Of a stretch of 52,531 bases of DNA, positions 40,785-52,531 are shown in pieces. How positions within the stretch are numbered: position 1 is the first letter of the stretch; every line of letters starts with the position of its first letter. The notes under the pieces were generated by a model that saw only the letters and a list, made by a program, of their open reading frames with translations, searched no databases and was not told the DNA's origin. Source of the stretch: an uncultured Clostridia bacterium (lineage in GTDB: Bacteria > Cyanobacteriota > Vampirovibrionia > Gastranaerophilales > Gastranaerophilaceae); contig CAMEWS010000008.1 of NCBI GenBank assembly GCA_945946765.1, positions 1-52,531 on the forward strand, read 5' to 3'. The translations under genes and the position numbers were made by a program.

Positions 40785-41366
40785 TTATTCAATTATAAAA
40801 TTCAATTGTGTATTAAAGGTTGATTCAAACAAATCTTTTTTGTGCTCTGCTGCTTTTAGGCTAGGTTTAAAACCTATTGTTTTAATAAACAAATTTAAGC
40901 AATCATTTGTTTTTTCGGCGCGCATTCTTAAAATTAAATTTTTATGTGGTTTGTCCAAACCGTCTGCAATCCTAAGCAACGAAGCCAGCTTGTTAACAAG
41001 ATCTTTAGAATTATCTGTTAATTTTGCATAAAATTCATGTTCTGCTTCGTCGGGCAAACTGTTTCTGTGATACCTTGCAATATTGGCAACAATAAGAGTT
41101 TCTTCTTCATCGAAGCTTTCAAGACCTTCTTGTAAAATTAAATCCATAGTGTGTTTGTGATGTGATTTTTTTTCAATATAATAACCGATATCATGAAGTT
41201 TAGCTGCTGAGCAAAGATATGCTTTTTCTTTTTTTGAAAAATCAAAAATAATTCCGTTTAGTGCTTCAAAAAGCATTACAGAGTATTTTTCAACCTCAAG
41301 GGCATGTTCTTTATCTAAACAATATTTCTCAAAAATTTCAGATTGATTCATCAATATTTTATTCAT
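40785..41366 (-). CDS. HD-domain protein related to Ppx/GppA C-terminal domain
   Basis: 193 aa. The HD fold has its metal pair in AAKLHDIGYYIEKKSHHKHT, with a further His in NIARYHRNSLPDEAEHEF and Asp in LLRIADGLDKPHKNL, the layout of the C-terminal part of exopolyphosphatase/guanosine pentaphosphatase without the N-terminal actin-like half. A nucleotide or inositol-polyphosphate substrate is possible. It overlaps the CheA stop by 8 nt (ATGAATAA), so it is translated with the chemosensory genes. Confidence 0.85.
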   Translation of the reverse strand: MNKILMNQSEIFEKYCLDKEHALEVEKYSVMLFEALNGIIFDFSKKEKAYLCSAAKLHDIGYYIEKKSHHKHTMDLILQEGLESFDEEETLIVANIARYHRNSLPDEAEHEFYAKLTDNSKDLVNKLASLLRIADGLDKPHKNLILRMRAEKTNDCLNLFIKTIGFKPSLKAAEHKKDLFESTFNTQLNFIIE

Positions 41367-44300
41367 CTTTCAACAACTTTTCTATTGTATCTAACAAATA
41401 ATCTTGGTTAAAATTACCTTTTTTAATATATGCATCAACATCCGGAATTATATCTGTTACATTTTCGACATCATAAGAAGATATGATTATAATTGGTATA
41501 TCTTTGAATTTTTTATGAGCTTTTAATTCATTAACAAACATGTTACCGTCCATTTCCGGCATTTCCAAGTCTGATAAAATAAGGTCAAAATCCGTTTTAT
41601 ATAAAACTTCAAAAGCTTCACGAGGATTTTTAACTATTTCAAAGCTATATCCCCAATGAACAAGAATGTTTTTTAACAACTCTCTTGTTGTCATTGAATC
41701 GTCAACAATAAGTATTTTATAATCTTTATTGGTTTTAGTATTTATATTGCGTTTATGTACACTTAACAAAGGGTTTTCAATAGGAGCATAAGTATATTTG
41801 TACAATTCCTGTAAATTTAAAATTAAGCATGTTTCACCATTGGCAAGCGTAGTAATACCTGATATATTTTTAAGCTTTATAATCGGGGCTTCAAGTTTCT
41901 TTTGTAGAATATTTTGGTCTCCAATTATTTTATCAACAATAATTCCCATAAGACAGTTTTCGACTTCTACAAGAAGCACTGTTTTTTTGTCTTCATTAAG
42001 AATATCCTCTGAGGTGGGAAGATTCATCAATTCACTCAAATAAAACAAATTAACTGTTTGTTCGTCAATCACAACAGATTTTATATCATTACGAGTATAA
42101 ATGTCTTTATTATTAACCCAAGAAACATTTTTTATTGCCGTCATAGGGACAGCAAAATATTGCTCTGAAGCTTTTACTATAAATGCCTTTAGGGTAGACA
42201 TAGATACCGGTAACTCTATTGTGATTTTAGTGCCCTTATTGGGTATAGAAAATACTTTTACGGAACCGTTTAATTGTGAAATTTTTGTTTGAACAATATC
42301 AAGTCCGACTCCTCGACCTGAAATTTCTGTCACAACTTGTTCTGTGGAAAAGCCCGGCCAAAAGATGATATTCATTATTTGTTCCGCAGAAAGGTATTCG
42401 GCCTCTTTTGAGGTAATCATACCTTTTTCTACTGCTCTTGCAACTATTTGTTTTAAATCTATTCCTCTGCCATCATCATGAACTTCGATTACAATTTTAT
42501 TTTGCAAATTACGAGCAATTAAGTAAATTTTACCTTTTGGTGATTTGCCTGCCAGAATCCTTTCTTGAGGTGTTTCTATACCATGATCTATCGAGTTTCT
42601 TATAATATGCATCAAAGGAGCTTTAATTTCTTCTATCACTTTTTTATCGGCACTTGTTTCGCTTCCTGATATGAGCAGTTCGATTTCTTTGCCTGTATCC
42701 TTAGATATATCCCTTATCATTCTGGGGAACATGTGGAAAATTGTAGCTAACGGCAAGACTCTAATGTTTTTAATCATTTCTTCCAACTGAGTTGTAAGAA
42801 TATTCATTTTAGTGTCTTCTTCATCCGTAGCTTTTTGCAAATTTATAATTTTGTTTTGCATTTTTATAATTTTTGCTGCATTTTCTTGGAAAATAGAAAA
42901 GACTTGTTTTATAAATACAGACAATGTTGCATAATCGATTTTAGCGTCTGAGTTAAGATATTTTCTGTCATAATATTTTATAAAACTTTGAGATTTGTGG
43001 TTAAAATTGCGCCATTCAATTGTGTCACTAAGCATACTTTCAAGCTCTGACATATTTTTTTTGTATTTAATTCGCCCAATAATAAGCTCGCCTATTTGAT
43101 TTACCAATCTATCAAGTTTTTTTGAATCTACACGCAAAGTTTTAATAGAAGTTGCTTCAAACGAGTTAAAGAAATCCTGTGCTTTTTTTATTGGCAGGGA
43201 AGCCTCATCAATTGTAGATGCAATAGCTGTAATAGGGTTAACCGATCTGTTAATATCAAGCATTTGCTTGATTATATCAAGCCGCTGTAATATAAGAGAG
43301 ATATCTTCTTCTTTGTTTTTGGAGTCTAGTGTCATTTGTTCAATTGAAGATAAACTTTGTTTTAAAATAACAATGACTTCTTTTTCAGGGAGTGAATTTT
43401 CTTGTTTTACAAGTTCAAGAATTTCTTCTATTTTATGCACAATATCTGAAACTTCTTTGTTTTTGCTTATTTCAATAATAAGCTCCAACGTTTCTTGTAA
43501 AGCAGGAATTTGAGTTAAACTTGACTCTAAATTACATAAACCGTCTTTTATAAATTCAATTTTTTCAACAAAATTCCGAATAACAGAAGTTTCTTCGATG
43601 GGAATGTGTTTTTCTTCTTTAGATTCATTTTCCGGCTCAAATTTTTGTGCTACTTTCCTTTTTAAATCAAATTTTTCAAGATCTAATTTTTCATATAATT
43701 TGTTTAAAAAATCAGTTATATTAATAATTTTGTCATCAATGTCATTAACTTCATCTTTTGTCATCATATTAGAATTTAACATAACAAAAGTTACTTTATC
43801 TTTAATGCATTGAAGTTCATTTTTAATATCATAACAATTTGTATTTTTAAACTTTTCAGACAATTGCTCAATAATATCGGCAAATGTTTCAAGATAAGAA
43901 GAACCCTCGTCACCGCTTAAATTACGTAATAAAACATACGCTTCAGAAATAAGCCCGTTTATTGCAATCGAAGTTTTTTTTATTTCATCGTCTTTGTTGT
44001 CAGATTTTAACTCATCGCCTAAGAGACTTTGATTATCATCATATTTGTCATCATCCGTATTCTTTTTTTTGAATTTGTTTATTAAAGAATCAATATAATC
44101 TATGTGTTTTTGGATATCATCCGAATAATACTCCCTCTTTATCTTTACGGATTCTTGTATTAAATCCGAAAGTAAATCGGTTGCTTTGTACAATGCATCT
44201 GATATTTCTCTGTTTATATCCAGTTTGTTTTCTTTTGCTAGTCCTAAGACATCTTCCGCCTTGTGAGCAAGTCTTTGGATGTTATTAAATCCAATCATTC

Positions 44301-44472
44301 TTGCTGCACCTTTCAAGGAGTGTGCATCTCTAAATAAATAGACAATTAAGTTTTTGTTGTTGGGTGATGATTCCAACTGCAAAAGATTGTTATTCATTTT
44401 TTGGATGATTTCTTCTGTTTCACCCCTGAATATATTTAAAATTTCTTCAAATTCTTCCGGCAGAAAATCCAT
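41359..44472 (-). CDS. CheA-type histidine kinase with C-terminal receiver
   Basis: 1037 aa in this order: an Hpt domain with the phosphorylated His51 (RDAHSLKGAARMIGF), a long acidic/helical linker, a dimerisation helix (KLDRLVNQIGELIIGR), an ATPase with N-box HIIRNSIDHGIETPQER, G1 VHDDGRGID and G2 EISGRGVGLDIV, a CheW-like domain, and a receiver (ILIVDDSMTTRELL, DLEMPEMDG, IIIISSYD) at ~915-1037. This CheA-REC form is used by cyanobacterial PilL/PixL-type systems that govern type IV pili and phototaxis, as well as by some flagellar systems. No CheB, CheR or CheY lies nearby. It follows the chemoreceptor gene by 17 bp. Confidence 0.9.
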   Translation of the reverse strand: MDFLPEEFEEILNIFRGETEEIIQKMNNNLLQLESSPNNKNLIVYLFRDAHSLKGAARMIGFNNIQRLAHKAEDVLGLAKENKLDINREISDALYKATDLLSDLIQESVKIKREYYSDDIQKHIDYIDSLINKFKKKNTDDDKYDDNQSLLGDELKSDNKDDEIKKTSIAINGLISEAYVLLRNLSGDEGSSYLETFADIIEQLSEKFKNTNCYDIKNELQCIKDKVTFVMLNSNMMTKDEVNDIDDKIINITDFLNKLYEKLDLEKFDLKRKVAQKFEPENESKEEKHIPIEETSVIRNFVEKIEFIKDGLCNLESSLTQIPALQETLELIIEISKNKEVSDIVHKIEEILELVKQENSLPEKEVIVILKQSLSSIEQMTLDSKNKEEDISLILQRLDIIKQMLDINRSVNPITAIASTIDEASLPIKKAQDFFNSFEATSIKTLRVDSKKLDRLVNQIGELIIGRIKYKKNMSELESMLSDTIEWRNFNHKSQSFIKYYDRKYLNSDAKIDYATLSVFIKQVFSIFQENAAKIIKMQNKIINLQKATDEEDTKMNILTTQLEEMIKNIRVLPLATIFHMFPRMIRDISKDTGKEIELLISGSETSADKKVIEEIKAPLMHIIRNSIDHGIETPQERILAGKSPKGKIYLIARNLQNKIVIEVHDDGRGIDLKQIVARAVEKGMITSKEAEYLSAEQIMNIIFWPGFSTEQVVTEISGRGVGLDIVQTKISQLNGSVKVFSIPNKGTKITIELPVSMSTLKAFIVKASEQYFAVPMTAIKNVSWVNNKDIYTRNDIKSVVIDEQTVNLFYLSELMNLPTSEDILNEDKKTVLLVEVENCLMGIIVDKIIGDQNILQKKLEAPIIKLKNISGITTLANGETCLILNLQELYKYTYAPIENPLLSVHKRNINTKTNKDYKILIVDDSMTTRELLKNILVHWGYSFEIVKNPREAFEVLYKTDFDLILSDLEMPEMDGNMFVNELKAHKKFKDIPIIIISSYDVENVTDIIPDVDAYIKKGNFNQDYLLDTIEKLLKDE

Positions 44473-44489
44473 TTAATATTCCAAACTAA

Positions 44490-45503
44490 TTATATGTTCT
44501 TTAAATTTCCGATACTCTCAATATTGGTATTTACCAGATTTAACATATCTTTTAAATCACAAGTGTTTTCTTTAATGCTTTTTATAACTTCATCCGAGAA
44601 TTTTTCTTGGTTATCAAGATTTACACTTACATTTTCAATATATTTCATTAATACATTCAATGCTTCATTTAAAGCTTTAAAGTTTTCATCTATATTACCG
44701 GCAAGTTTAACACCCGATTCAATTTCTTTGCTACCTTCTTCCGTTGCCATAACGGTAGAATTAGTTGTGTGTTGAATATCATTAATCAAAGAAGATATTT
44801 TTGTTGTTGCTTGTTTTGATTCATCGGCAAGTTTTCTGATTTCACCTGCAACTACGGCAAAACCTTTACCATGTTCACCTGCACGTGCTGCTTCTACGGC
44901 TGCATTTAAAGCCAACATATTTGTTTGTTCGGCAATGTCTTCAACAAGACCGATGATAGAACCGATTTGTTGAATATATTCGCTCAATTCTAATATTAGT
45001 TCTGCAATGATTTGTATACGTTGTTTTAAAACAATCATTTTATCAATATTTGCTTGTACGGGCTTTTGTTCCAAATCAGCATCTTTTAACGCTTGAGAAA
45101 CTTTGTATAAAATTTCCTTTGAAGCCTGTTTTAATGAAAAAGATATAGACTTAACTTTTTCAGCGTTTCCTGACGTTTGAGAAAAAGCTGTTTCATATTT
45201 TTTCAATGCATTTTTTTGAGCAATAGCCGAGTCTAATATTTTTGTGGCTGAATCTGATGTTTTTTGGGAACTCTGTTTAAGTTCTTTACGGAGTTCTCGT
45301 ATCAACCACTCTCTGGTTAATATATATTGCCCCAAGTATATGATAAATAGAACAGACATTCCGATTATAGATGTAGCAGACCAAAGATTGTCCAAGGTAA
45401 TTATAACAATCAAAACCATCAACAAAACTATAAATATAACATCCAGTACAAATTTTATATCTGATTTTGTCTTGTAATTAAATCCTGCACTGCTGTTCAT
45501 CAT
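44490..45503 (-). CDS. Methyl-accepting chemotaxis-type receptor without a large sensor domain
   Basis: 337 aa. Two hydrophobic helices (about residues 17-37 and 45-60) lie within the first 65 residues and leave no periplasmic domain. A cytoplasmic helical rod follows with the receptor tip [20 protein letters not shown] and [15 protein letters not shown]. It must therefore sense a membrane or cytoplasmic cue, or act as a hub for other proteins. Methylation is uncertain because no CheR is encoded here. It is the first gene of the minus-strand chemosensory operon and divergent from the CheW-type gene. Confidence 0.9.
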
Positions 45504-45621
45504 AAACTCTCTTTCAAACTAATCTTTCAAAATTCTTGTTATTTTAGGCAAATATGCAATATAATTATTTTATTACAAATTTAAATTTACGACAATATGC
45601 AGAACTATGAGATGAAATAAT

Positions 45622-46656
45622 ATGGAAAATACAAGACCTCTATTTAATAATGATGAATCAAACAATCTTCATTTGTGTTTTTTGTTGGATGACAAAACAT
45701 ATGCCGTTAAGGCAAAAAATGTTTTAGAGGTAGCTACATTGCCTTTAATTAATGATTCACAAAAATTGCCTGAATACATTGTCGGAATTTTAAATTACAA
45801 TGATTTATTCATCAATGTAATTGATATTAGAAAAGTGTTTTCTATCCCAACTCAAAAATATGAGTTATCAAATAAAATTATAATAATAAAAGGAGAAGAA
45901 TCCTTATTTGCAATCATTGTTGATAAAGTTACGGATTTTTTCTCTGCTACTTTTCAAGAGATTCAACACGTAATGGGTGAATCAACAGGTAATATCATCA
46001 AATCATTTTATAAAATAAATGATAACATTATAAACATTATAGATATTACAAGCATCGAATCTCTAGTGAAAAAAAATCATAATAAAGAGAATGAAACAAA
46101 CTATACAGCACTTTTCCCACAAGACGAAGAATCCGTATTTGTCTTGCAAAAAAGAAAAAATGAAATTGCCAAAATACCGACAATGAATTTAGAAACTACA
46201 ATTTATGGGAAAGACCAGTATGTTATTTTTCATATAGCAGAGCATACTTATTGCTTATATTCCTATTACGTCAAAGAGCTCACAAACACTAAAAATTATC
46301 AATTGACAAAAATACCATACACTCCTGACTTTATTCAAGGAATTATAAACATTAAAGGTAATTTTTATTCAGTCTTGAATCTTAAAAAATTTATTGGATA
46401 CAAGCCTGACGATTTTAATCCGGAAGCCGGTAAATTGATTGTTATCAATTCATCTGAAATAAAACTTGCTTTGTGGGTGGATGATATAGTTAATATTATC
46501 AATATTGATAAGCAAAATATCATAAATAAAAACGATAAAAGGTTGGATGATTTATTTGTTAAAGCAGAAGCTTATATAAATAATAAAGTTTATAATATTT
46601 TAAATTTTGATAAACTTGTAAACGATGAACGATTGTATGTAGATAATTCAAATTAA
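45622..46656 (+). CDS. Tandem CheW-domain protein
   Basis: Two CheW domains: residues ~10-150 (LCFLLDDKTYAVKAKNVLEV to DNIINIIDITSIE) and ~195-335 (VIFHIAEHTYCLYSYYVKEL to YNILNFDKLVND). No receiver domain is present, so it is a double adaptor rather than CheV. It would couple the receptor at 44490 to the CheA at 41359. It is divergently transcribed from them across 118 bp. A weak ribosome binding site (gagatgaaataat) precedes the ATG. A 3-nt gap to the DNA glycosylase gene suggests co-transcription. Confidence 0.85.
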   Translation: MENTRPLFNNDESNNLHLCFLLDDKTYAVKAKNVLEVATLPLINDSQKLPEYIVGILNYNDLFINVIDIRKVFSIPTQKYELSNKIIIIKGEESLFAIIVDKVTDFFSATFQEIQHVMGESTGNIIKSFYKINDNIINIIDITSIESLVKKNHNKENETNYTALFPQDEESVFVLQKRKNEIAKIPTMNLETTIYGKDQYVIFHIAEHTYCLYSYYVKELTNTKNYQLTKIPYTPDFIQGIINIKGNFYSVLNLKKFIGYKPDDFNPEAGKLIVINSSEIKLALWVDDIVNIINIDKQNIINKNDKRLDDLFVKAEAYINNKVYNILNFDKLVNDERLYVDNSN

Positions 46657-47255: not shown

Positions 47256-49442
47256 ATGTTATTTTTTATATCTTTATTAATGGTGTTTATTTCATCTTAT
47301 TTGATGGCATCAGTGTTGTCACCCAAAGATACAAATAATCGTCCGACCGGTGTTTATCCTTTTTTATACACTTTATTAATAATGTTTGCACAAGTTGTTT
47401 TGACTATGGAAGTGCTTTCTTTGTTTAGTGCAATTAAAGAAATACCCGTACTGATTTTTAATGCCTTATTTCTTGTCAGCGCAGTTTATTTATGGATAAA
47501 AAAAGACAAACCTCTTTATGTTCCCGACATCAAAACCTGCTTAAAAAAAATATTTAACGGATTAAAAAGAGATAAATTCCTTGCTGTTATGGCATTTGGT
47601 TTTGTGTTTTTTATAATCAGTGTTATCCTTCTTGATTTGTTTTTGCCCGTAAACGGCGGAGATGCGCTTACTTATCATCTTAACAGGTCATCATATTGGC
47701 TTTTTCAAGGCAATTTGAATCACTTTACGATTTCTGATGACAGAAATCTCGTTATGCCGATAAATTCGGAAATTTTATACCTTTGGAATTTATTATTTTT
47801 TAAAAATGATATAGGCTTGTATTTCATTTCATTTATAGGTTACATTGCCGTAATTTTTTCCATATACAACATATTGGAATACTTCGGCTTTTCTCAAAGA
47901 AGAAAACTTTGGGCTGTTTTTATTCTTTCTTCTTTTGCTTCCGTAATGGCAGAAGTATCCAGCCTTGAAACAGATGTGTTAATTGCAGGTACAATGCTTT
48001 CGGGTATTACAATATTTTTATATGCATTAAAAGATAACAATAAAACGGGCTTGTATTTTTCTTCGCTTGCTTGTGCTTTGGCTATGGGTACAAAATCACC
48101 TGCAATAATTGTTATGCCGGGTGTGTTTTTACTCATGAGTTATTTTGCGTACAAAAAATTGCAAAAAAACTTTTACAAACCTATATTGTTTTTTTCCGGA
48201 TTGTTGATTGCAAACTTTTTGATATTTTCAAGTTATAACTACATATTGAACTTTATGGATTTTCATAACCCTTTAGGCAGCGAATCATCAAGAGCAATAC
48301 ATGGTTTTAGGGGCGGAATAAAAGCCTATATTGCCAATTATATAAGATATATTTTTATGATGTTTGATTTTTCGGGTTTTCGATACAGTGAATATGTGGG
48401 CGAACATATTTTAAATGCCAAATTTGCAATCTTTGATTTCTTACATATTCCTCACGAACTTGGTGTTGAAATGTCAGACAACAACGAAATCAACAACCGT
48501 TTTGTAAACGTAAAAGTAGGTACAGGTCTTTTGGGCTTTTTATTGTTTCTTCCGTCAGTAATTACTGCATCAATACTCGGATTTTTCAAAAAATGCGGAA
48601 AGAAAATACACTCTTTATGTGCTTTTGGGTGGATGTTTTTTATAAATGTAGCTTGTTTGTCGGGCGCAATTGCTTATATGGTTTTCAGTATACGTTTTAT
48701 GACGTTTATTATCCTTCTATCTTGTCCTGTATTGGCACTTTCTTATATCAAAAAAGCAAATTTGATAAAATGCTTGATACTGTTTTTTGTAATGTCTTAT
48801 TTTCTTGTAATGAGCGTTAACCTGTCAGGAAGACAACATGCACAAATTATGGATGTTATGTTAAAAACAAAAACTCTTAATGAGGCACGTGAACAAATTC
48901 GCTGTGCTTTATACACTGGATTTGAAGGCAAAAGACCTGAATGTTATGTAACAGAGCACATTAAAACATTACCTAAGAATACAAAACTCGCTTTCTTTTT
49001 TGGCGCAATGGATGCAACCTATCCAATAAATATGTTAAATGCTCACGGCTATAAAATTGATACACTTCTTCCCGAAAAAGCACCGACATATAATTTAGAA
49101 CAATATGACTATATAATTACAACAAACAAGATACTTGCAAGTACAGTACTCTTAACAGATACAAAAAACACCGAAATTAAATACAAGGTCGATAAAAGAG
49201 GATATGCTTATTATCCCGAATATATGCCGTTTTCTTGTGTTTATGAAACCGAAACCCCCAACAAAGGATTCTATACAAAAGATTTAAAAAATGCGGTTAT
49301 AACAGATTCTCGTTGTATGATAGACACTCCGTTTTTTGAAGATAAAGGGTTTGAACTAATAAAAGCAATAAATTTTACATCCGAACAGCGTGAACAAACA
49401 AAATTTGTGTCTATCTATAAAAATATAAGAAAGAAAAATTAA
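47256..49442 (+). CDS. GT-C-type membrane glycosyltransferase-like protein
   Basis: 728 aa, with about 12 hydrophobic helices in the first 520 residues and a soluble C-terminal domain of about 200 residues. Between the early helices, NGGDALTYHLNRSSYWL carries the acidic residue and Tyr-His expected in the first external loop of GT-C (PMT/ArnT-like) enzymes. It would transfer sugars from a lipid-linked donor to an envelope acceptor. The donor and acceptor are unknown. GGAG lies 8 nt before the ATG. Confidence 0.7.
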   Translation: MLFFISLLMVFISSYLMASVLSPKDTNNRPTGVYPFLYTLLIMFAQVVLTMEVLSLFSAIKEIPVLIFNALFLVSAVYLWIKKDKPLYVPDIKTCLKKIFNGLKRDKFLAVMAFGFVFFIISVILLDLFLPVNGGDALTYHLNRSSYWLFQGNLNHFTISDDRNLVMPINSEILYLWNLLFFKNDIGLYFISFIGYIAVIFSIYNILEYFGFSQRRKLWAVFILSSFASVMAEVSSLETDVLIAGTMLSGITIFLYALKDNNKTGLYFSSLACALAMGTKSPAIIVMPGVFLLMSYFAYKKLQKNFYKPILFFSGLLIANFLIFSSYNYILNFMDFHNPLGSESSRAIHGFRGGIKAYIANYIRYIFMMFDFSGFRYSEYVGEHILNAKFAIFDFLHIPHELGVEMSDNNEINNRFVNVKVGTGLLGFLLFLPSVITASILGFFKKCGKKIHSLCAFGWMFFINVACLSGAIAYMVFSIRFMTFIILLSCPVLALSYIKKANLIKCLILFFVMSYFLVMSVNLSGRQHAQIMDVMLKTKTLNEAREQIRCALYTGFEGKRPECYVTEHIKTLPKNTKLAFFFGAMDATYPINMLNAHGYKIDTLLPEKAPTYNLEQYDYIITTNKILASTVLLTDTKNTEIKYKVDKRGYAYYPEYMPFSCVYETETPNKGFYTKDLKNAVITDSRCMIDTPFFEDKGFELIKAINFTSEQREQTKFVSIYKNIRKKN

Positions 49443-49459
49443 CAATACTTGTATTTAAA

Positions 49460-49488
49460 TTGACAGCAGGTTTTGTCAAAAGTAAAAT
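49460..49488 (+). promoter_or_regulatory. Sigma-70 promoter of the riboswitch transcript
   Basis: TTGACA (49460-49465), exactly 17 bp, TAAAAT (49483-49488). The expected transcription start is near 49495, a few bases before the riboswitch core. Confidence 0.8.
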
Positions 49489-49508
49489 CGAAAAATAAGA
49501 TAAAAAAG

Positions 49509-49622
49509 AAGGAAATAAGGTGCAAGTCCTTAGCTGAGCCGCAACCGTACAGCCGGAACACTTCAAGGGATGAATAGTTTTATATTCCCCTTACAAACCA
49601 CCGATGTCTCGGGATTTAGGCA
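49509..49622 (+). ncRNA. Cobalamin-riboswitch-like leader RNA
   Basis: Conserved core elements appear in order: GGAA (49511), GGTGCAAGTCC (49519-49529), GCTGAGCCGCAACCGT (49533-49548), then after a stem-loop (aaggg/ccctt) the second block ACCACCGATGTCTCGGGA (49597-49614) and AGGC (49618-49621). These match the core blocks of cobalamin riboswitches: GGUGNAAUCC, CCCGCNACUGU and GCCACUG...CGGGAAGGC. The classical 3' B12 box is not visible, so it is probably a short (class II or adenosylcobalamin-variant) form. Downstream are a hairpin at 49621-49655 and CCCT (49663-49666), which can pair with the AGGG (49686-49689) ribosome binding site of the next gene. Translational control is inferred. Confidence 0.8.
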
Positions 49623-49697
49623 CGGAATACATAATAACAAGACATTGTATCCGTGTTTATAACCCTTTGTATAGGATTTAAGAACAGGGATTTTTTT

Positions 49698-50396
49698 ATG
49701 GCAGCAACCGTAACAAGAGGTTCCAACAGCAGAATAGGCACTTGCCCCCATGGGCTTCCTCTTGGTGCTTGTCCGATTTGTAACGGTATGGGCGGTGGCG
49801 GAGGCATAAAAAAAGACAACAAGCCCAAAGAAATGTCTTACAACGAATGTTATGCCGTATGGCAAATGATGAAAGCACAAAAAGCCGCTCATAAACAAAC
49901 AATGCAATTATTTGCTGCGCAAGATTTGTCAACAAAATTAAATAAAATTCAAGAACAAATCAACGCAATGAAAATAGCCATACAAAATTCTAACCTGCCA
50001 AAACCTGTTATTCAGGCTTTTAATATTCTGGCAAACTCTGTACTTACTCCGCTTGTTAAAGCAGCACAATCAATTACAAACACCCTTCAAAATATTGCTA
50101 ATACCGTAATGAAAACCTTAAGCGAAATTAAGCAAAAAATGGTAGACATTGCAGACAAGTTAACGGCGATGTTTGGAGAAGCAAAAGCGGCACTGCAAAA
50201 GAAAATAAACGAAAAATTCAAGGATATTAAAAAGAAAATCTTCAATCTTTTCGGACTCACAAATGTTAATGATGAAGAAGACGAAGAAGCTAAAAAAATA
50301 GAAGAAGCGAAAAGACTGTTTGAACTAAACACGGCAAAAGAAGCACTATTCCAACTGTTTGACCCGACAGAAGAAGAAAAAGAAGAAAATCAATGA
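49698..50396 (+). CDS. Zinc-ribbon and coiled-coil protein under the riboswitch
   Basis: I do not recognise the family. The start is ATG 49698, 7 nt after AGGGA; the frame is open to 49653 but those residues lie inside the leader. Residues 13-24 (CPHGLPLGACPIC) form a compact zinc-binding-type motif followed by NGMGGGGG. The rest (~190 aa) is helical: a Lys/Gln-rich coil (MSYNECYAVWQMMKAQ, KLNKIQEQINAMKIAIQ), a central helical bundle (VIQAFNILANSVLTPLVKAA) and an acidic tail. No signal peptide. Its stop overlaps the next start (ATGA), so it forms an operon with the membrane protein that follows. Confidence 0.8.
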   Translation: MAATVTRGSNSRIGTCPHGLPLGACPICNGMGGGGGIKKDNKPKEMSYNECYAVWQMMKAQKAAHKQTMQLFAAQDLSTKLNKIQEQINAMKIAIQNSNLPKPVIQAFNILANSVLTPLVKAAQSITNTLQNIANTVMKTLSEIKQKMVDIADKLTAMFGEAKAALQKKINEKFKDIKKKIFNLFGLTNVNDEEDEEAKKIEEAKRLFELNTAKEALFQLFDPTEEEKEENQ

Positions 50397-51883
50397 GCTA
50401 TATAAAACCCTATCAAGATACAGAAACCCAACGTCAATATCGCAACCATACACAAACTCAAAAAAAATTAATTTCGGAAATGAAAGAAGGTGTGGTTGTA
50501 AATTCCATGATAAAAGACAACCAAGACTCACCAAACATCGGGAATATGTACGACAGTCTTGTTATCCCTGATAGAACAGTTCAACCTGATAGTTTTGAAC
50601 ATATTGATTTAAAACACCACAACAAAAAACAAAATTCACAGCACAAAAGTTTGACACCTTTGCTTGCGGCAACTACAACACTTTTTGGTATCCTTGCAGG
50701 ATCAATGGCACTATTATCCAGAGCCGCCAAACACAAAGCAGTATTGCCTGATTGGAAAACATTACCCGAAATCCCTAAAAACGTTGCAATAAATAACGAA
50801 CCTCATTTTGTTACTTATTTAATGATACGTGACCCCAATATGCGCAACATTCTCGGGGCTTTGGGAGTATTTGTCCTTAGTGCGGCAGGACTTGCGGGCA
50901 AAAACTTTGTAGACGGCGTAAAAGAAATTTGGGTACGTAAAAAACAAGCCGATGTACAAAAAGATTTGCAAGAAAAACTTATCGCCGTAGAAACCCAAAG
51001 TTTTTCGGGTAAAATGCAAATATTAAGAAACATGCTTGCCGAAAAAGCAAAAGAGTTGGATTCTATTTTGCATAAAGAAAATATTGGTAATGCCAACACT
51101 ACTTTCAGAAAATTTATTTCTTTTAAACAATCAAATAACGAAAAAACAGAAAAAAACATTTTGGGATATGCTGCTGTGGGTGTAACTACCGCACTAATTA
51201 GTTTATTAGGATTTCTTGCATTTAAAAATGTACAAAAAACCGCAAAAATATACGAAAATTACTCAAGACAAATGGAAGATAAGATAAAAAAACTTATTGA
51301 TTCAAACACAAATTGGGATAATGAAACACTGGCTAAGGTTAAAAATATTTGTGTATCAATGAATTATTCGGCAAAAAAAATAGAAGCAACGCTAAAAGAT
51401 GCCAAAGGTCTTCCTGACGGGTTTATTACGGAAGTAAAAAAAGAAGCTGAAAAAGTAACACAAGAAGGTGCGGAAGCAATTGCGGGAAAACCCGGAACAA
51501 AACCGTCTTTGTATTCTCACACTGATGATGACAGAGCACACCTTTATAACATGATAGTAAACTGGGAAAACCCTCTGTTAAAAATCCTTTTTGCAGGATT
51601 ATCCACCGTTACAACGGTCGGATATGTCGGAACAGCCGCAATTGAAGGTATTAAAGAAGCACAAGTTATCAAAGAAAACGCAAAAACAGAACTTGACTTA
51701 CAAAAACGACTGGTTAACGTTGAATTAAACAATTTTGAAACTAAAAAACGCAGTGTTATTGACCCGATGATAGAAGAGTTTCGCATACAGGCAATGCAAG
51801 GCAAAGACAAGAATGAGTTAAAAACAAGAGCGGAAAACATACTTTATGAAATCAAAAACGGTCCGCCGTTTGTATATTCATAA
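50393..51883 (+). CDS. Membrane protein of unknown function with an internal duplication
   Basis: 496 aa. Hydrophobic segments lie near residues 87-106 (LTPLLAATTTLFGILAGSMA), 150-168, 260-280 (LGYAAVGVTTALISLLGFLA) and 400-420. Two similar blocks are seen, each a hydrophobic segment then a Lys/Glu-rich helix: NILGALGVFVLSAAGLAGKN with VDGVKE..KKQADVQKDLQEKL..VE, and KILFAGLSTVTTVGYVGTAA with IEGIKE..KENAKTELDLQKRL..VE. No known family. The first 60 residues are polar and disordered. Overlap with the previous gene (ATGA) means coupled translation. Confidence 0.8.
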   Translation: MSYIKPYQDTETQRQYRNHTQTQKKLISEMKEGVVVNSMIKDNQDSPNIGNMYDSLVIPDRTVQPDSFEHIDLKHHNKKQNSQHKSLTPLLAATTTLFGILAGSMALLSRAAKHKAVLPDWKTLPEIPKNVAINNEPHFVTYLMIRDPNMRNILGALGVFVLSAAGLAGKNFVDGVKEIWVRKKQADVQKDLQEKLIAVETQSFSGKMQILRNMLAEKAKELDSILHKENIGNANTTFRKFISFKQSNNEKTEKNILGYAAVGVTTALISLLGFLAFKNVQKTAKIYENYSRQMEDKIKKLIDSNTNWDNETLAKVKNICVSMNYSAKKIEATLKDAKGLPDGFITEVKKEAEKVTQEGAEAIAGKPGTKPSLYSHTDDDRAHLYNMIVNWENPLLKILFAGLSTVTTVGYVGTAAIEGIKEAQVIKENAKTELDLQKRLVNVELNNFETKKRSVIDPMIEEFRIQAMQGKDKNELKTRAENILYEIKNGPPFVYS

Positions 51884-51925
51884 TTTTATACAATATGTAA
51901 TACATAATTTAATATAAGGAATATT

Positions 51926-52459
51926 ATGACAATTACACCTGTTGCTTTTCACAACTTTATACCGACACAAAGACAAACAAATACGGACGAACCTTGCATA
52001 CTTGTTGCTCAATTTTGCAAATCCTTTAAATTGCCTGATGAAAAAAGGAATCATGCAGATTTTGACGAACAACTGACAGCAAGAATATCGTCATATAAAG
52101 ATGCGGCAATAAAGCCTGTAACAGATATGCTTAAAAAAGCTGATGACGAAAAAGACATAACAGCAGGGCTTTTTTTGTTGAACAGAATTATTGATGCGGG
52201 AGCAAAAACTGTTGGAAACACTTACCCTATTATATCAAGATTTAATTATTCACCATCACACAATGTTCAGGTAATGCTTGCTGGAATTTACAGAAAAACT
52301 CTTGTCCCTGACGGATTCGGCCCTCTTGTAACAATGTTTTTAAGCAATGCAAAAAAACCGACACAAATACCTTTTGACCCGAATGAAGAAGTAGGCGGCG
52401 CAATACTTGAATACCTCAGAAATAATTCAGCAATAAATAATTATTCTAAATATGTTTGA
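51926..52459 (+). CDS. Hypothetical helical protein, 177 aa
   Basis: I do not recognise it. After a polar N-terminus (MTITPVAFHNFIPTQRQTNT) it is all-helical, with HEAT-like helix pairs (AAIKPVTDMLKKADDEKDIT, AGLFLLNRIIDAGAKTVGNT, VGGAILEYLRNNSAI). No signal peptide. AAGGAATATT precedes the ATG at a good distance. It is 42 bp after the membrane protein gene and probably the third gene of the riboswitch operon. Its stop codon overlaps the start of the dispersed repeat. Confidence 0.75.
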   Translation: MTITPVAFHNFIPTQRQTNTDEPCILVAQFCKSFKLPDEKRNHADFDEQLTARISSYKDAAIKPVTDMLKKADDEKDITAGLFLLNRIIDAGAKTVGNTYPIISRFNYSPSHNVQVMLAGIYRKTLVPDGFGPLVTMFLSNAKKPTQIPFDPNEEVGGAILEYLRNNSAINNYSKYV

Positions 52460-52531
52460 GGCGGCTTCGCTTGGAAAAGTGTAACGGAGTGCGAATGACG
52501 CCAAGTCTAGCATTTTGCGGAAGTGACCCCA
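52458..52531 (+). repeat. Dispersed repeat, hairpin-free version
   Basis: It begins within the stop codon of the gene at 51926 and reads gaggcggcttcg, aagtgtaacggagtgcgaat, gacgccaagtctag, cattttgc, GGAA (52519-52522), gtgacccca, then the window ends. It equals the repeat at 18226-18335 without the ~40-bp hairpin. Truncated by the window. Confidence 0.85.

Follow-up and report, generated by a model that had tools for sequence, protein, structure and literature searches.

Which function lies behind a cobalamin riboswitch that stands in front of the genes of three uncharacterised proteins? The question is raised by the window, that is, the whole stretch of 52,531 nucleotides analysed here (contig CAMEWS010000008.1 of assembly GCA_945946765.1, positions 1 to 52,531, from an uncultured bacterium of the order Gastranaerophilales). 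In the gut, vitamin B12 is subject to competition, and its source is puzzling in this order: CobS, which is needed to make B12, and the BtuC-type permease are rare, yet the B12-dependent ribonucleotide reductase NrdJ (over the cut-off in 34 genomes) and a B12-type riboswitch (in 39) are common in the 40 genomes nearest to the window. The riboswitch singles out a small, testable set of proteins, P1, P2 and P3, and it is close to certain that their genes, hereafter the trio, are under the control of a corrinoid riboswitch. The locus features described below lie on the forward strand.

According to the covariance-model search, the leader of the trio contains a full-length match to RF01689, the adenosylcobalamin class II (AdoCbl-II) riboswitch, at 49500–49571, with a score of 32 bits and an E-value of 1.3e-5 in the 601 bases scanned; the Rfam cut-off is 36.5 bits. 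The original prediction had proposed a cobalamin riboswitch and named RF00174 (Cbl-I) and related adenosylcobalamin variants as models to search with. The cobalamin aptamer was confirmed, but its subclass is AdoCbl-II: RF00174 gave zero matches in the window's genome, with eight of 14 control genomes positive. At the gathering score, no riboswitch was detected by Rfam in the whole window, and the sole match was a tRNA gene at 148–226. Among five loci scanned, the Rfam cut-off for RF01689 is passed by the trio leaders L022, L035 and L080, and not by L001 and L012. A second AdoCbl-II copy (42 bits) is present in the window's genome ahead of nrdD, the gene of the anaerobic ribonucleotide reductase.

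Relatives of the locus (numbered L) were gathered by P1 protein similarity, ignoring the leader, and the best 80 of 151 matches were used. The names among them are Candidatus Gastranaerophilales, Melainabacteria, Candidatus Scatousia, Candidatus Galligastranaerophilus and Cyanobacteria bins. The alignment behind a covariance model, R1, comprised 52 of the 81 aptamers, and the sequences inside the model fit it by construction. It excluded nearly identical copies, L009 and L010 (overlooked by the pattern) and five leaders with a long insertion in helix P6; an extra P6 insertion is found in L011, L054, L060, L063 and L077. (Helices P3, P4, P6 and P13 of the RNA are distinct from the proteins P1–P3.) With R1, the aptamer is detected ahead of P1 in all 80 relatives and likewise in the window, each with at least 59 bits. 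The window scores 75.9 bits at 49502–49570, its sequence (as L082) being part of the model alignment. The leader is kept with the trio, a point on which the original prediction hinged, and it is also found ahead of ordinary B12 genes.

In the 52 aptamers, the covariation score is 0.309 as against 0.165 in shuffles, none of 500 shuffles being as high, and 91.5% of the cells are paired. Double-sided pair changes and pair types were not above shuffles, with 120 and 124 of 500 shuffles, respectively, reaching the observed counts, and helix P6 is invariant. Compensatory changes are many in helix P4 and fewer in helix P3. The pseudoknot-like columns 33/55 are G-C in 33 and A-U in 17 of the 52 aptamers. 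The window leader shares with RF01689 a full-length match, covarying helices P3 and P4 and an invariant core, and the wider leader family shares with it the covarying loop pair L5–L13. These loops were scorable in 63 of 81 leaders, where none of 20000 permutations fitted as well; over the 19 distinct combinations, one of 20000 was as good. In the window's clade (L001–L020 and the window), the loops are unscorable in 12 of 21 leaders, including the window, and the other nine score 1–2 of 4, which is a poor fit. L5–L13 kissing loops are already described in PMC9600662. RF01689 is tabulated as an AdoCbl variant from marine samples in a 2010 paper (PMC2864571). The present leaders differ from the members listed there in their mostly gut-derived order and in a hairpin that covers the ribosome binding site.

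The 3' arm of this hairpin is formed, in most leaders, by the ribosome binding site itself, and a short U-run precedes the start codon. The letters of the hairpin vary by clade: GUCCUCU/AGAGGAU, AUUCCUUGU/ACAAGGAAU and AUCC(G/U)UGUU/AACAGGGAU. In the window, the anti-Shine-Dalgarno arm AUCCGUGUUU at 49649–49658, located by leader comparison, is opposed with one mismatch to the Shine-Dalgarno arm GAACAGGGAU at 49682–49691, which is followed by a T run and the start codon at 49698. Upstream of both arms, a P13-like expression-platform hairpin, the loop of which would be L13, is located at 49599–49625 and is kept in 17 aligned close-clade leaders. The anti-binding-site strand (A/G)UCC(G/U)UGUU is conserved in 17 of 20 close relatives and in the window. 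The CCCT/AGGG pairing proposed originally is present in the window, but it is not conserved, since CCCTT is found nearby only in L015 and L016 of the 20 close relatives. The leaders L069 and L079 are shorter and have no binding-site hairpin.

A strict contiguous-helix test was performed on 79 leaders, after L047 and L048 were dropped for a misplaced start. The result was partly positive: 35 of the 79 leaders beat 99% of shuffles, and 48 beat 95%. The mismatched helix of the window fails this test, being matched by 77 of 100 shuffles. A competing pairing, between the anti-binding-site arm and the 5' part of the aptamer, was also considered. Among the possible aptamer partners of the arm, this 5' part ranks first in 66 of 79 leaders; however, the pairing exceeds 95% of shuffles in no more than 19 of them, and we make no claim for it. 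No terminator was found in a scan of the window's leader; thus, translational control is the simpler reading.

The leader model was then run on 40 whole genomes (numbered G), mostly of the window's genus and otherwise from its family and order, and 65 sites were detected in 39 of them. The targets are the trio (34 sites), nrdD (20), metE (2), a TonB receptor or btu genes (5), and cobT, a cbiM operon, an OprB porin and a radical SAM gene (1 each). A target was called the trio when P1 was read behind the leader. Family scans were performed on eight nrdD genes, one metE, the TonB receptors of G020 and G030, cobT, the porin, the radical-SAM gene and CbiM, the second gene of its riboswitch-led operon, and all agreed; the other targets were named from coordinates or translations, and the btu operon of G035 from its FecCD match. 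Within the limits of a model derived from trio leaders, the trio is the commonest target in these genomes. Because the same leader precedes the trio and, at 29 of the 65 sites, genes of the known B12 regulon, the trio is assigned to this regulon. The OprB-type porin (L133 2328–3988, G027:C76) and the radical-SAM/SPASM gene (L140, G027:C126) are unusual B12 targets.

The predicted ligand, as deduced from the co-targets, is a corrinoid, and the co-regulated genes likewise suggest that B12 switches the trio off. A ligand other than a corrinoid would fit the window copy, which lies under the Rfam cut-off, but related leaders pass this cut-off, and within the order the leader model also picks out nrdD, metE, TonB-receptor/FecCD operons, cobT and cbiM. 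Such a ligand is very improbable. We know of no earlier RF01689 target of the kind of the trio genes. The trio was not met as a riboswitch target in the literature searches made on B12, riboswitches and Gastranaerophilales/Melainabacteria, a coverage outside which most subscription journals fall.

P1 (49698–50396) consists of 232 residues, with an N-terminal C-x-H...C-x-x-C site (CPHGLPLGACPIC) followed by long amphipathic or coiled-coil-like helices. In protein alignments of P1–P3, made with 31 of the 81 sequences, Cys16, His18, Cys25 and Cys28 of P1 are invariant. P2 (50393–51883) is a membrane protein of 496 residues with four hydrophobic segments and a strongly conserved C-terminal tail, NGPPFVYS. 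Its two halves align to each other (BLASTP, E-value of 2e-8 with filters and composition correction off). P3 (51926–52459) is an all-helical protein of 177 residues. The P1 and P2 reading frames overlap by four bases, and the gap between P2 and P3 is 42 bases. The original description of the cluster, namely a first protein with this Cys/His site, a membrane protein with two related halves and a helical protein, linked by overlapping or short junctions, is borne out in each respect. P2 adjoins P1 in 80 of 80 relatives, and P3 is next in 79 of 80; in the remaining locus, L049, the contig ends.

The novelty of the three genes, also asserted originally, holds as well: no P1–P3 family match lies above a curated cut-off. 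According to the Pfam and NCBIfam searches, P1 and P2 have weak matches below the cut-offs and the window's P3 has none, and the PDB sequence profiles gave nothing credible for P1–P3. P1 was not found in phage records or P2 in plasmid records, and viral contigs contained no confirmed relative of P1. The predicted structure of P3 is of good confidence and ARM/HEAT-like, and it matches generic ARM/HEAT proteins only; the likeness of the model to this repeat fold reveals no function. The predicted structure of P2 is poor (predicted local distance difference test score of 61.5), with no usable Foldseek match. By eye, a short N-terminal M-x-I...SFG or FKG-like stretch was observed in several proteins (L081 1698–3080, L008 and P3), and this is perhaps a lineage-specific targeting signal.

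To which B12-related function the trio belongs was approached from its distribution. P2, FecCD and CobS were searched for in 383 genomes of the order, and P1 was taken as present in P2-bearing genomes. A FecCD match was called strong (BtuC-type) at an E-value below 1e-40, a cut of our own that excludes four of 34 matches (G025, G036, G050 and G270). P2 is present in 343 of the 383 genomes. Strong FecCD is found in nine of 40 P2-less genomes vs 21 of 343 P2-bearing genomes (Fisher p 0.0017), and CobS in three of 383, all P2-less. A strong BtuC-type permease was thus undetected in 353 and CobS in 380 of the 383 genomes. In all nine P2-less FecCD genomes (G020, G247, G031, G033, G044, G305, G337, G369 and G372), a riboswitch lies on the same strand 2.1–2.4 kb upstream of the permease, with a TonB-receptor-like open reading frame between. 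Within the window's genus (23 genomes), G020 is the only genome without P2 and the only one with FecCD. This FecCD gene sits in a riboswitch-led btuB-C-D-F-like operon, the four genes of which were family-checked; the NCBIfam BtuF, BtuC and TonB-B12 models match the G020 proteins below their cut-offs. No FecCD match was obtained in the window's genome (80% complete).

The riboswitch search over the P2-less and FecCD genomes used stricter filters, by which weak copies may be missed. Of the 40 P2-less genomes, 17 have no riboswitch match and 23 have one. NrdJ over the cut-off is missing in 16 of the 17 riboswitch-less genomes vs 13 of 40 hand-picked P2-bearing genomes (p 2e-5), and it is present in 14 of the 23 genomes with a riboswitch. 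In five of these 23, P1 is accompanied by two P3-like genes in place of P2, and in one further genome P1 lies where the contig stops. Among the remaining 17, FecCD or CobS is found in 11, vs 21 of 349 genomes with P1 (p 3e-9). In G380, a riboswitch-led TonB receptor lies on a short contig. According to these gene-presence profiles and the genomic context, it is narrowly probable that the role of the trio is corrinoid acquisition. As for the B12-responsive membrane system of the original prediction, control by the riboswitch stands, and corrinoid uptake or handling receives indirect support from the phylogenetic profiles and from five genomes in which a btu-like operon adjoins the trio.

A different role has to be weighed where the other targets are considered. 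The second main target is nrdD (20 of 65 sites, eight of them checked), and the trio might likewise be a B12-independent backup made without B12, as nrdD is for nrdJ and metE for metH. Seven of 80 loci contain, upstream of the trio, another riboswitch of opposite orientation, which by eye precedes an nrdD-like gene in L022 and L080. Directly upstream of the trio leader, an nrdJ-like gene is found in L012 (by eye) and NrdJ in G013, and most P2-less FecCD genomes show no second riboswitch, on nrdD or elsewhere; these observations would suit a backup. None of P1, P2 and P3 is enzyme-like, however, and the trio is retained in 11 of 40 sampled genomes without an NrdJ match. Corrinoid acquisition is favoured because riboswitch-led backups persist in some genomes with B12 synthesis or import, namely metE in G025 and G031, which have CobS, and nrdD in G044, which has FecCD, while the trio is absent from all three. 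We regard the backup role as unlikely.

The composition of the trio raises another alternative, in which it serves a B12-starvation response other than transport, such as internal handling of corrinoid or cobalt, remodelling, storage or an envelope change. The four invariant Cys/His residues of P1 and the helical, scaffold-like composition of P1–P3 agree with this. So does a variant cluster without an adjacent P2, in which the riboswitch is followed by P1, P3 and a second P3-like gene (L180–L184, in G116, G256, G277, G367 and G197 of genera g33 and g43). The anticorrelation with FecCD and CobS, by contrast, is most simply explained by acquisition, and genomes with BtuCDF should still need internal handling. 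This second alternative also seems rather unlikely.

Several observations weigh against corrinoid acquisition. The genomes are related, and at the genus level the enrichment is seven of 12 vs seven of 45 (p 0.005, hand-tallied genera). Strong FecCD also occurs in 21 of the 343 genomes with P2: in 11, a riboswitch is placed as in the P2-less genomes, five (G170, G200, G203, G257 and G276) have a btuB-C-D-F-like operon divergent from and back to back with the riboswitch-trio, and five have no nearby riboswitch. P2 is not indispensable, since five genomes keep P1 and two P3-like genes without it; it is also unlike any known transporter, and the trio has no ATPase. G195, G287, G334 and G343 (85–93% complete) have the riboswitch on nrdD only, without P2, FecCD or CobS. 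G119 (99% complete) has NrdJ without a riboswitch match, P2, FecCD or CobS, and G027 has CobT without P2, FecCD or CobS. In seven of the nine P2-less FecCD genomes no riboswitch other than the btu one was detected, so that loss of the trio is not clearly separable from loss of the other targets; nrdD was found under a riboswitch in only one of the nine (G044), and six of the nine have no NrdJ. Among 40 sampled trio-bearing genomes, the NrdJ match is none in 11 and weak in two, so that a B12 enzyme to be served is only presumed in such genomes.

If the trio acts in corrinoid acquisition, the following mechanism can be proposed. The AdoCbl-II-class riboswitch would lower the output of the P1-P2-P3 operon once B12 suffices. 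Binding of the ligand would stabilise the aptamer and the L5–L13 kissing loop, and the downstream strand would thereby be freed to pair with and mask the ribosome binding site, halting translation; transcription may also halt at the U-run. Under B12 scarcity, the binding site would be exposed and the trio produced. P2 would be the membrane component, P1 a metal- or corrinoid-binding partner acting through its C-x-H...C-x-x-C site, and P3 a protein-binding ARM/HEAT scaffold. The trio would substitute for BtuB-BtuCDF in bacteria that mostly lack the BtuC-type permease and CobS. Tentatively, P1-P2-P3 may then be a novel class of system for acquiring corrinoids, non-homologous to known ones, that replaces BtuBCDF in most Gastranaerophilales; it would combine a zinc-ribbon-like CxH...CxxC protein, a duplicated membrane protein of four segments and an ARM/HEAT-like protein, with no ATP-binding cassette (ABC) ATPase of its own. 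We consider this quite possible, if somewhat doubtful.

The likeness of the trio to BtuB-BtuC-BtuD-BtuF is one of regulation and position. The same riboswitch class is used in the order; the btu genes are present where the trio is missing (G020, genus g48) and are its divergent neighbour in five genomes. The proteins differ in that no sequence relation was found, and the trio is without a TonB receptor, an ABC ATPase or a FecCD domain. According to Pfam and NCBIfam, none of the BtuFCD-type parts (FecCD permease, ABC ATPase, BtuF-type binding protein) has its domain in P1–P3. B12 uptake proteins other than BtuFCD include ECF-CbrT and BtuM, the latter being a small membrane protein with a cysteine that acts on cobalamin. 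Compared through the Pfam, NCBIfam and PDB profile libraries only, P1–P3 did not match BtuM or ECF-CbrT. If the trio does import corrinoids, it represents a new vitamin-transporter class; otherwise, it nevertheless adds a new branch to the B12 regulon.

The clean promoter described originally was recovered as a sigma-70-type promoter, TTGACA-17-TAAAAT, at 49460–49488 with 11 of 12 consensus matches. An inverted repeat TTGACA...TGTCAA (49460–49479) overlaps it, the counterpart in L001 being the palindrome GTACTTTTTGTAAAAAGTAC, and this repeat could be an operator for an additional regulator. On the 3' side of the trio, no gene was common to all of eight relatives read gene by gene. Further genes of the operon could be missed because the window stops at 52531, which is 72 bases past P3. 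The upstream gene resembling PMT (47256–49442) was considered as a part of the cluster and rejected, since it is present in the loci of 17 of 80 relatives. A PMT-like membrane glycosyltransferase gene upstream of the trio is tandemly duplicated in L014 (1382–5792). Two different trios are present in one bin (L010 and L074, both of isolate E19__bin50; G004), from contamination or a genuine second copy. Farther upstream in the window (41359–46656), open reading frames resembling CheA, a methyl-accepting protein and a CheW-like protein were observed by eye, and they are also found upstream in the close relative L001.

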